A DNA stretch of 64,000 bases from Aminobacter niigataensis (GTDB lineage: Bacteria; Pseudomonadota; Alphaproteobacteria; Rhizobiales; Rhizobiaceae), in the NCBI RefSeq assembly GCF_014200015.1, contig NZ_JACHOT010000007.1, positions 124,001 to 188,000 of the forward strand. Reading direction: 5' to 3'. The position numbers and the translations under genes were made by a program. This document shows, piece after piece, positions 26,732-61,189 of this stretch. Numbering within the stretch: position 1 is the first letter of the stretch; every line of letters starts with the position of its first letter. The notes beneath the pieces are model-generated. The model saw only the letters and a list, made by a program, of their open reading frames with translations, was not told the DNA's origin and did not search any database.

Positions 26732-26808
26732 TGGCGCGCCCGAAAGGATTCGAACCTCTGACCCCCAGATTCGTAGTCTGGTGCTCTATCCAGCTGAGCT
26801 ACGGGCGC
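26732..26808 (-). tRNA. tRNA-Arg (ACG anticodon), first copy
   Basis: The minus strand folds as a complete cloverleaf: a 7-bp acceptor stem (GCGCCCG with CGGGCGC), a D arm GCTC-AGCTGGATA-GAGC, an anticodon stem CCAGA/TCTGG with loop CTACGAA (anticodon ACG), and TTCGAAT in the T loop. The discriminator is G and the CCA end is encoded. It is identical over 77 bases to the copy at 31873. A promoter lies about 60 bases upstream. Confidence 0.97.
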
Positions 26809-31728: not shown

Positions 31729-31902
31729 CATCACAATGCCCGGCTGGAGCTGAAGGAGGTCAAAGTGCAAGACAAGGAAATTCGCATCACAGGGTCAAAA
31801 GCCGTGCTCGCGAGAGTTGCCTCGCAGGGCTTCGTTAAGACCCCGCCTTCGGTTCTCTCTTTTGTTCGAGAATGGCGCGCCCGAAAGGATTCGAACCTCT
31901 GA
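31729..31902 (+). pseudogene. C-terminal remnant of a serine-type site-specific recombinase
   Basis: From 31729, just after an in-frame TAG, the frame reads ARLELKEVKVQDKEIRITG, SKAVLARVA and VLSFVREWRAR, then runs 30 bases into the tRNA gene before stopping. By pattern this is the tail of large serine recombinases, which in several rhizobial elements end next to a tRNA. The catalytic domain is absent. An AAGGAGG lies in frame inside it and could let a 46-residue peptide start at the GTG 31765. The family call is from memory of the pattern, not a search. Confidence 0.5.
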
Positions 31903-31949
31903 CCCCCAGATTCGTAGTCTGGTGCTCTATCCAGCTGAGCTACGGGCGC
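31873..31949 (-). tRNA. tRNA-Arg (ACG anticodon), second copy
   Basis: It is identical over all 77 bases to the copy at 26732-26808, with encoded CCA and anticodon ACG. Its 3' end faces the glycine-rich autotransporter segment and touches the recombinase remnant, as expected for an integration site. Its own promoter is retained. Confidence 0.97.
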
Positions 31950-57738: not shown

Positions 57739-57770
57739 ACCAGACGCCCGGTCTCGGCCGGGCGTCTGGT
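57739..57770 (+). terminator. Strong hairpin terminator after the small basic protein
   Basis: ACCAGACGCCCGG and CCGGGCGTCTGGT form a perfect 13-bp stem around a six-base loop, followed by a T-rich tract (TGATTCTTCTTCC). It separates the small gene from the riboswitch-led exporter gene. Confidence 0.85.
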
Positions 57771-57801
57771 TGATTCTTCTTCCAAAAACCCCATCTATCC
57801 T

Positions 57802-57855
57802 GGCGCAGGAACGATCTTGCGCCTCCCCCAAAAAACCGGTCGGGACGACCCGCCA
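57802..57855 (+). promoter_or_regulatory. Guanidine-II (mini-ykkC) riboswitch
   Basis: Two hairpins, each with an ACGA tetraloop, lie just upstream of an SMR exporter gene. Hairpin 1: GGCGCAGGA (57802-57810), loop ACGA (57811-57814), TCTTGCGCC (57815-57823), nine pairs with one G-U. Hairpin 2: GG-T-CGGG, loop ACGA (57845-57848), CCCGCC (57849-57854), six pairs with one bulged T. Paired stems with ACGR loops, the inner pairs GGG/CCC in the second stem and position before gdx/sugE are the definition of this class. The ribosome-binding site (GGAG, 57862-57865) lies just downstream. Guanidinium binding would free or expose it; the exact mechanism here is inferred. Confidence 0.88.
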
Positions 57856-57871
57856 TCCAATGGAGCGTTCC

Positions 57872-58186
57872 ATGGCTTGGACTTATCTGTTTCTTGCTGG
57901 ACTGTTTGAGATCGGCTGGGCCATCGGGCTGAAATACACGGACGGCTTTTCGAAGCCGATGCCGACTGTCCTCACCATCGCCTCGATGATCGTCAGCCTC
58001 GGCCTGCTCGGCCTGGCGCTGAAGACGCTGCCCGTCGGCACGGCTTATGCCATCTGGACCGGCATCGGCACGGTCGGCACGGCGATGCTTGGCATCTGGC
58101 TTCTGGGCGAGCCGGCAACGGCGCTCCGCCTTGCCTGCATCGGCCTGATCGTGTCCGGCATCGTCGGCCTCAAGCTCGTCGCCTGA
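57872..58186 (+). CDS. SMR-family guanidinium exporter (Gdx/SugE)
   Basis: A 104-residue four-helix small-multidrug-resistance protein from the ATG at 57872, seven bases after GGAG. The essential glutamate is in [20 protein letters not shown], a sequence typical of the SugE/Gdx subgroup rather than EmrE. Gdx proteins export guanidinium ions against protons. The upstream guanidine-II riboswitch agrees with that function. Confidence 0.95.
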
Positions 58187-58820: not shown

Positions 58821-59038
58821 TTTGATTTCCCTGGAGTCACTTCGCGCCGCTTACATACGCGCGCAAAGGCAGAGTTCAAGCGCCAAAAAGGCATGTCTCC
58901 CATGAATTCGCGTGATGTTGCGGATAGGAAACGCTCTTTGGCGCCAATCTCGATATGGATTGTTCACTAGTCCGCATCTGGCGGCTTCGTGGAGCGATGG
59001 CTACCTGTAGCACGAATGACAGCGACAGGACCAGCGAT

Positions 59039-60091
59039 ATGGAACTTGGCCTTTACACTTTTGCCGACGTCAGCCCGGAAGCAGGCCCGGGAGCCATTGG
59101 ACCGCATCAGCGGTTGCGCAATCTCATCGAAGAAATCGAACTGGCCGACCAGGTCGGGCTCGATGTGTTCGGTCTTGGCGAGCACCACCGCCCGGATTAC
59201 GCAGCCTCTGCGCCGGTCGTCGCGCTTGCTGCCGCAGCCGAGCGCACCAAGCGCATCCGGCTGACCAGCGCCGTCACCGTGCTTTCCTCCGACGATCCCG
59301 TGCGCGTGTTCCAGCAATTCGCCACCCTCGACCAGCTTTCCGGCGGCCGCGCGGAGATCATGGCCGGTCGCGGCTCGTTCATCGAATCGTTCCCGCTGTT
59401 CGGCTACAACCTCGAGGACTACGACGAGTTGTTCGCCGAAAAGCTCGACCTGCTGCTGGCGCTGCGCGACAGCGAGCGCGTCACGTGGTCGGGCACGCAT
59501 CGCGCGTCGATCGACGATCGCGGCGTCTATCCCCGCCCCTATCAGGACAAGCTGCCGATCTGGATCGCCATCGGCGGCACGCCGCAATCGGCAGCGCGCG
59601 CCGGCGTGCTCGGCCTGCCGCTGGCGCTTGCCATCATCGGCGGCGAGCCGGCACGATTCGCACCGCTTTTCGACCTCTATCGCGAGGCGTCACGGCGCGG
59701 CGGGCAGGACCCGGCCAAGCTTGCCACCAGCATCAACGTCCATGGCTTCGTCGGCGAAACCACCGAGCAGGCGGCCGACGACTTCTACCAACCGCAGGCC
59801 GAGGTGATGAACCGCATCGGCCGCGAGCGCGGCTGGGGACCGACTTCAAGGGCGCATTTCGACCAATCGCGTTCGCCGCAAGGCGCGCTGTTCGTCGGCA
59901 ACCCGGAGGTGGTGGCCGAAAAGATCGTGGCACAGCACAAGCTGTTCAAGAACGAGCGCTTCCTGCTGCAGATGGCGATCGGCATCATGCCGCACGACAA
60001 GATCATGAAAGCGATCGAGCTCTACGGCACCAAGGTGGCGCCGCTGGTGCGCAAGGAACTTGGCGCCTCGCCCGCCGGTCCGGCAGCTTGA
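59039..60091 (+). CDS. LLM-class flavin-dependent oxidoreductase
   Basis: A 350-residue luciferase-like monooxygenase from the ATG at 59039 (AGGA upstream). It shares the patterns [35 protein letters not shown] and [13 protein letters not shown] with the protein at 25019, so the two are paralogues. Here no F420-reductase-like partner or regulator is adjacent. The upstream gap (58821-59038) shows nothing I can name. Confidence 0.93.
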
Positions 60092-60187: not shown

Positions 60188-61189
60188 ATGACCACCCTTT
60201 CTGTCCTCGACCTTTCGCCGGTCACCGAAGGCAGCACTGCCGCGCAATCGCTCCGGAATACGCTCGACCTCGCCCGCCACGCCGAGACACTCGGCTTCCA
60301 CCGCTACTGGCTGGCCGAGCACCACAACATGGCCGGCATCGCGAGTGCTGCGACCTCGGTCGTCATCGCCCATGTCGCGGCCGGCACCAGCACCATCCGA
60401 GTCGGCGCTGGCGGCATCATGCTGCCCAACCACGCGCCGCTGGTGATCGCCGAGCAGTTCGGCACGCTGGCCGCCCTTCACCCCGGCCGCATCGACCTCG
60501 GCATCGGCCGGGCGCCGGGCACTGACATGCTGACCGCACGCGCCCTGCGCCGTAATCTCGAAGCCGGCGTCGACAATTTCCCGCAGGATGTCGTCGAGCT
60601 GATGGGCTACTTCGAGCCGGCGACGCCGGAGCAGCGCATCCGCGCCGTACCCGGCGAGGGCGAGCAGGTCGAGGTCTGGGTGCTCGGCTCCAGCCTTTAT
60701 GGCGCGCAACTCGCCGCCATGCTTGGCCTGCCCTACGCATTCGCCTCGCATTTCGCGCCCGCCGAGCTCGACCATGCGATCGAGATCTACCGCTCGCGCT
60801 TCCAGCCCTCGGAGCGGCTGGCCAAGCCCTATGTCATGGCCGGCATCAATGTCGTGGCCGCGGAGACCGACGCGGAGGCGAAGCTCCTGTTCACCTCGGT
60901 GCAGCAGGCCTTCGTCAATCTGCGAAGCGGCCGCCCAGGCAGGCTTCCGGCCCCGGTCGAAGGCTACGAGCGCGACCTTGACCCGGTCGCCCGCCAGATG
61001 CTGTCGCAGACGCTCGCCTGCGCGGTGGTCGGTTCGCCCGAAACCGTCCGCCGCGGCGTGGAGGCGTTCATTGCGCGAACCGGTGCTGACGAATTGATGG
61101 TGACGGCGCAGGTGTTTGACCATGTCGCGCGCAAGCGGTCGTACGAGATATTGGCGGAAGTCGGCGCCGCACTGGCAAAGGCGGCGTAG
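60188..61189 (+). CDS. LLM-class flavin-dependent oxidoreductase (TIGR03558-like)
   Basis: A 333-residue luciferase-like protein of the other major group: [20 protein letters not shown] at the N-terminus, [37 protein letters not shown] and a C-terminal [18 protein letters not shown]. It lies 96 bases after the previous LLM gene in the same direction but is only distantly related to it. Substrate unknown. Confidence 0.93.

Follow-up and report, generated by a model that had tools for sequence, protein, structure and literature searches.

The window, a stretch of 64,000 nucleotides of Aminobacter niigataensis DNA, very probably contains a riboswitch of the guanidine-II (mini-ykkC) class, placed in the 5' leader of a gene for a Gdx-type guanidinium exporter; we put the probability of this reading at about 0.93. 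It is based on covariance-model membership, conserved paired hairpins, the type of the target gene and conservation within the genus. The element is an ordinary member of an already known kind of riboswitch, and by its sequence it would add one more guanidine switch together with its exporter gene. Elsewhere in the genome, an element of the same family precedes a second gene for subunit a of the FoF1 ATP synthase. This linkage is the part of our results that deserves follow-up, and it carries wider weight than the window element itself.

The leader and its transporter gene

The features of the leader and its surroundings are these:

57739..57770 (+): terminator-like hairpin that probably closes the preceding transcript; 14 pairs (10 G-C) and a loop of 4, then TGATTCTTCT; agreement with a consensus, short of proof
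57770..57800 (+): putative promoter, TTGATT and then ATCTAT/CTATCC, assigned by position relative to the family signals
57803..57822 (+): hairpin P1 of the guanidine-II aptamer, from the RF01068 match; 8 pairs, loop ACGA at 57811-57814
57823..57840 (+): linker between P1 and P2, from the RF01068 alignment
57841..57852 (+): hairpin P2 of the guanidine-II aptamer, from the RF01068 match; 4 pairs, loop ACGA at 57845-57848
57842..57847 (+): GGGACG, side 1 of a candidate OFF helix that would break P2; RNAalifold consensus of nine genus leaders
57862..57865 (+): Shine-Dalgarno sequence GGAG, 6 bases 5' of the ATG at 57872
57866..57871 (+): spacer CGTTCC, side 2 of the candidate OFF helix; invariant in 9/9 genus leaders
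57872..58186 (+): SugE/Gdx-type SMR transporter gene, 104 aa; NF008512, PF00893 and 6wk5 alignment

A search of the whole window on both strands with 4227 Rfam families (cmscan) placed Guanidine-II (RF01068) at 57803-57853 (+), with 39.0 bits and an E-value of 2.9e-4; in the search of the genome, the E-value of the same element is 5.6e-6. It is the sole riboswitch match in the window, the remaining two matches being tRNAs. Two identical tRNA genes lie about 5 kb apart on the minus strand, at 26735-26808 and 31876-31949. A sequence-only reading of this DNA had proposed the mini-ykkC identity and named the Rfam covariance model as its check; with a score above the gathering score of 32 bits, that identity is upheld. 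The same reading had described two ACGA-loop hairpins directly 5' of the SMR gene, which are plainly visible in the letters, and had placed the end of P2 eight bases before the ribosome-binding site, in agreement with a match that stops at 57853 and a GGAG that starts at 57862. The likeness to the family thus consists of two ACGR-loop hairpins joined by a linker, their spacing, their place before a transporter gene and the score above cut-off.

The product of the downstream gene matches PF00893 (small multidrug resistance family) and scores 130.8 bits against the NCBIfam SugE equivalog NF008512, for which the cut-off is 126. The other 20 NCBIfam models listed for it, Qac/Emr models among them, all fall below their own cut-offs, and the earlier assignment of the target gene to the SugE/Gdx type therefore stands. 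Its nearest solved relative is PDB 6wk5, which we take to be Gdx-Clo; 53/102 residues are identical. In the alignment, the two proteins have in common E13, W16, S42, Y59 and W62, residues that in 6wk5 presumably line the guanidinium site and serve guanidinium binding. These shared features tie the window protein to the SugE/Gdx subfamily; the title of the NCBIfam model still speaks of quaternary ammonium efflux. We regard it as a likely guanidine exporter. Two adjacent genes for luciferase-like monooxygenases lie 3' of it, at 58955-60091 and 60188-61189 (+).

Gene and leader are present in nine of the ten genus genomes searched, the tenth genome being 81% complete. Both ACGR hairpins are kept in 9/9 of these leaders; loss of the loops from close relatives that keep the gene, an outcome that the sequence-only reading had said would refute it, is not seen. 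The window leader and the G143 leader share 90% identity, and both the P2 bases GGGACGACCCGCC and the stretch TGGAGCGTTCCATGG around the Shine-Dalgarno sequence are identical in all nine. Among 80 more distant Gdx loci, RF01068 scores above cut-off in 43 (11, 8, 11 and 13 of 20 per set). Thirteen of the other 37 have tandem ACGR hairpins that score below cut-off (L084 is doubtful by eye), and 24 of the 80, many of them from Bosea, have none within 160 bases. Outside the genus, then, many genomes retain the gene but lack the switch.

The 5' boundary of the transcript may be approached through signals common to the family. In 75 family elements, TTG(A/C) peaks 41-42 bases before the P1 loop (28 occurrences) and CTA peaks 20 bases before it (18 occurrences); in the window, TTGA stands at -41 and CTA at -16. 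From these peaks, the transcription start would probably lie close to the 5' edge of P1. A sigma-70 consensus scan found no promoter.

Control of translation and competing readings

Guanidine-II riboswitches are described as a translational class (PMC7544219), with kissing loops and a guanidinium pocket (PMC5486947). For the element of P. aeruginosa, guanidine-dependent initiation of translation has been measured, and a P0 helix, to which both 5' flank and linker contribute, is proposed to conceal the ribosome site (PMC9561414). By analogy with these published members, the window element would bind guanidinium, engage its loops with one another and switch translation ON. At higher guanidinium levels, the ACGA loops of the two hairpins would kiss and hold two guanidinium ions; the kissing loops would favour P2 and so let ribosomes use GGAG and the ATG, and this access would lead to more exporter being made.

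The OFF state may differ in part from that of P. aeruginosa. There the P0 helix draws on the 5' flank as well as the linker, whereas in the window the family's promoter-like signals lie directly against P1 and would allow for little or no 5' flank. Similarly, masking of the ribosome site by the linker, as proposed for P. aeruginosa (PMC9561414), is not evident in Gdx leaders: an anti-Shine-Dalgarno role of the linker was rejected, with 4.09 pairs against 3.79 in shuffled sequences and 1/44 leaders at p<=0.05, barely above chance. Simple release of the Shine-Dalgarno sequence was rejected as well. Among the 24 of 27 SMR leaders that match the start pattern (three were left out), its openness is 0.319 in the free fold and 0.324 with both hairpins forced, and it is more open in 11/24.

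Another arrangement is put forward by the nine genus leaders, for which the RNAalifold consensus (-29.74) pairs GGGACG of P2 with CGUUCC. For the genus, we offer this pairing between P2 and the spacer that separates GGAG from the ATG as a candidate OFF state only; as modelled, it would bury the P2 loop together with some of the ribosome site, part of GGAG included. In the window, the OFF fold comes to -27.4 kcal/mol and the best fold constrained to keep both hairpins to -28.4 kcal/mol (OFF minus ON +1.0), and across the genus leaders the difference runs from -2.0 to +3.0 kcal/mol. Both sides of the helix are invariant in the nine leaders, among which there is no covariation in it. Beyond the genus, pairing of the 5' side of P2 with the start region is not enriched (44 leaders, mean z -0.28, 0 at p<=0.05). 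The single-sequence minimum fold of 57803-57890 retains P2, and the last bases of the spacer are also able to pair with UGGA at 57861-57864.

That last pairing underlies a different view of the leader, in which a fixed local hairpin, UGGA (57861-57864) with UCCA (57869-57872), masks GGAG regardless of ligand and the aptamer acts otherwise, for example on RNA stability. In the free fold, GGA pairs mainly within this UGGA/UCCA hairpin (probability about 0.7-0.8), which is open or closed alike when P1 and P2 are forced and has bases that are invariant in 9/9 genus leaders. However, the candidate OFF helix fits the same invariant bases, and published members act on the initiation of translation (PMC7544219, PMC9561414); we consider a ligand-blind mask unlikely. 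We give about the same low standing to the notion that the element has drifted, such that only P2 binds well and the response is weak or nearly constitutive. This notion starts from the pair adjoining the P1 loop, usually G-C in RF01068, which in the window is A-U (57810-57815), a detail that the sequence-only reading had missed. G-C at this place is a conserved feature of RF01068 and does not set a threshold for membership. Among the RF01068 matches in the family, the loop-closing pair is G-C in 74/75 P1 and 75/75 P2 hairpins, and the window has G-C in P2. The P1 pair is likewise G-C in 36/37 distinct Gdx-linked helix sets; among the nine genus leaders, only those of the window and G538 have A-U. 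The G of this pair (G6) is described as the base at the bottom of the pocket against which guanidinium stacks (PMC5486947), and we infer, with less assurance than we attach to the element's identity, that an A-U floor may weaken one of the two binding sites. Against drift, the double change preserves the pair and occurs in another species too; P2 and the two loops are undamaged, and the element still scores 39.0 bits. The A-U pocket is a small oddity of the window element, and it provides a natural variant, present in two species of the genus, to set beside near relatives that have G-C, such as G143 and G051.

It might also be asked whether these are chance hairpins, since a short G+C-rich pair of them forms easily in G+C-rich DNA, or whether they serve as a terminator or a protein site. 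This we judge extremely improbable. The E-value of 2.9e-4 holds over the window and all families, and the hairpins stand at the same place before the gene in every genus leader. Moreover, across 44 Gdx-linked elements, which comprise 37 distinct helix sets, standard pairs fill 406/444 pair cells, and shuffling of the 3' letters gives a mean of 351.0; 0/1000 shuffles reach 406, by a statistic that ignores the kinship of the rows. A guanidine-II riboswitch that controls translation of the exporter gene is the reading that we prefer.

Guanidine-II elements in the genome and family

This genome has three RF01068 elements, that of the window and two more, and no match to the guanidine-I riboswitch. 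RF01068 occurs in 61/151 family genomes, at 75 places. The first recognised gene 3' of these places, its family checked on representatives, is of SMR type in 38, of PACE/chlorhexidine-efflux type in 15 (L016, L020, L026, L116 and L120 among the loci), for FoF1 subunit a in 10, for a urea-amidolyase-associated protein in 8 and for a ChaA-like calcium/proton exchanger in 3; ChaA-like cation/proton antiporter genes lie behind the element at L005, L018 and L147. One locus, L140, has a tandem pair of elements (G119:C4 49310 and 49511) before a single SMR gene. On contig C1 of the present genome, the third element (L002 1501-1546 (-), L113) scores 33 bits and has AAGGAGG after P2. It is the single place of the 75 without an assigned gene; no long reading frame starts at a suitable distance from it, an ammonium transporter gene lies about 250 bases on, and the element is possibly orphaned.

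A second FoF1 subunit a behind the riboswitch

The remaining element of the genome lies on contig C2:

L114 8247-8288 (-): guanidine-II element (L003, L114), 178 bases before the second subunit-a gene
L114 7319-8068 (-): solitary second FoF1 subunit-a gene, behind the RF01068 element

There are two subunit-a genes in this genome, and the riboswitch-linked one is 62% identical to the other. Genes at least 69% identical to it are found in 10 of 151 family genomes, the rest among the matches listed being at most 66% identical; L029 is a truncated eleventh case in the family, at a contig end. A search of 397 genomes of the order added five more paralogs with the motif RLFAVM, and a Phyllobacterium plasmid carries a further one. 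Another subunit-a match is present in 15/15 genomes with a paralog. In a tree with 21 ordinary subunits a, ten of the paralogs group together as a single clade (support 100/100). In the alignment of these proteins, the paralogs keep the essential Arg and differ at fixed positions. Four residues past that Arg, Asn is replaced by Val (10/10 paralogs; 21/21 ordinary proteins have Asn); three residues before it, Leu is replaced by His (10/10; 20/21 ordinary have Leu); and in PYFFTVTSH, Phe is replaced by Ala (10/10; 21/21 ordinary have Phe). By the RLFxN motif, the conserved half-channel Asn would correspond, in our own assignment, to Asn214 of E. coli, which is listed as functionally important and as accessible near the c-ring (PMC6377231).

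The riboswitch accompanies the paralog closely. RF01068 scores above cut-off upstream of 21/22 fetched paralogs, namely 15 of 16 full-length ones and 6/6 further ones from the genus; the sample is the fetched loci, the best 30 per search, and paralogs of lower similarity without the switch could exist. In L169, the one below cut-off, both hairpins are present and P1 contains a mismatch. L266 duplicates L163, and the two were counted once; L186 carries only 185 bases upstream. By script, tandem ACGR hairpins stand before 19/19 distinct paralogs parsed and 0/51 ordinary subunit-a genes. This count left out L218, L193, L198 and L263; L193 and L198, read separately, add two more paralogs with the hairpins, and L263 was placed by coordinates. 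In 17 subunit-a-linked elements, double changes keep pairing at 7/12 pair positions. The neighbours of the paralogs otherwise vary by genome, an SMR gene following in G070 and G049. Inspection by eye of L014, L017, L171 and L220 shows a short reading frame between the riboswitch and atpB, beginning with an ATG shortly after P2; in L014 the frame ends just before the subunit-a ATG. It is perhaps a coupled leader.

A link between guanidine or ykkC riboswitches and ATP synthase or AtpB is not mentioned in the literature searched, in which two papers concern Na+-I switches and Nitrospirales. The published mini-ykkC gene table is a supplement named in PMC2864571, in which an earlier mention of the atpB link is possible. 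The nearest parallel is the Na+-I riboswitch, which stands 5' of operons for Na+ ATP synthases (PMC9971707): both RNAs belong to cation-sensing classes and precede ATP synthase genes. However, Na+-I is described with ATP synthase components and Na+, whereas the element on C2 precedes a solitary second subunit a and belongs to a class for another cation.

On the strength of this linkage, the riboswitch probably regulates the second subunit a. A more tentative proposal, to which we give somewhat less than even odds, is that, here and elsewhere in the order, guanidine-II also drives a dedicated second subunit a that replaces the ordinary one when guanidinium builds up; both the exchange and its purpose are matters that we infer. 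Guanidinium is the group carried by the essential arginine of subunit a. The free ion could bind the carboxylates of the c-ring, and the altered half-channel of the paralog (Asn to Val, Leu to His, Phe to Ala) would keep the motor running or sealed.

A single family of ligand-sensing RNA marks a second and diverged form of subunit a in several families of one order. Should guanidinium hamper the proton path of the ATP synthase, this would provide a concrete target for guanidine toxicity and a reason for bacteria to sense such a simple molecule.
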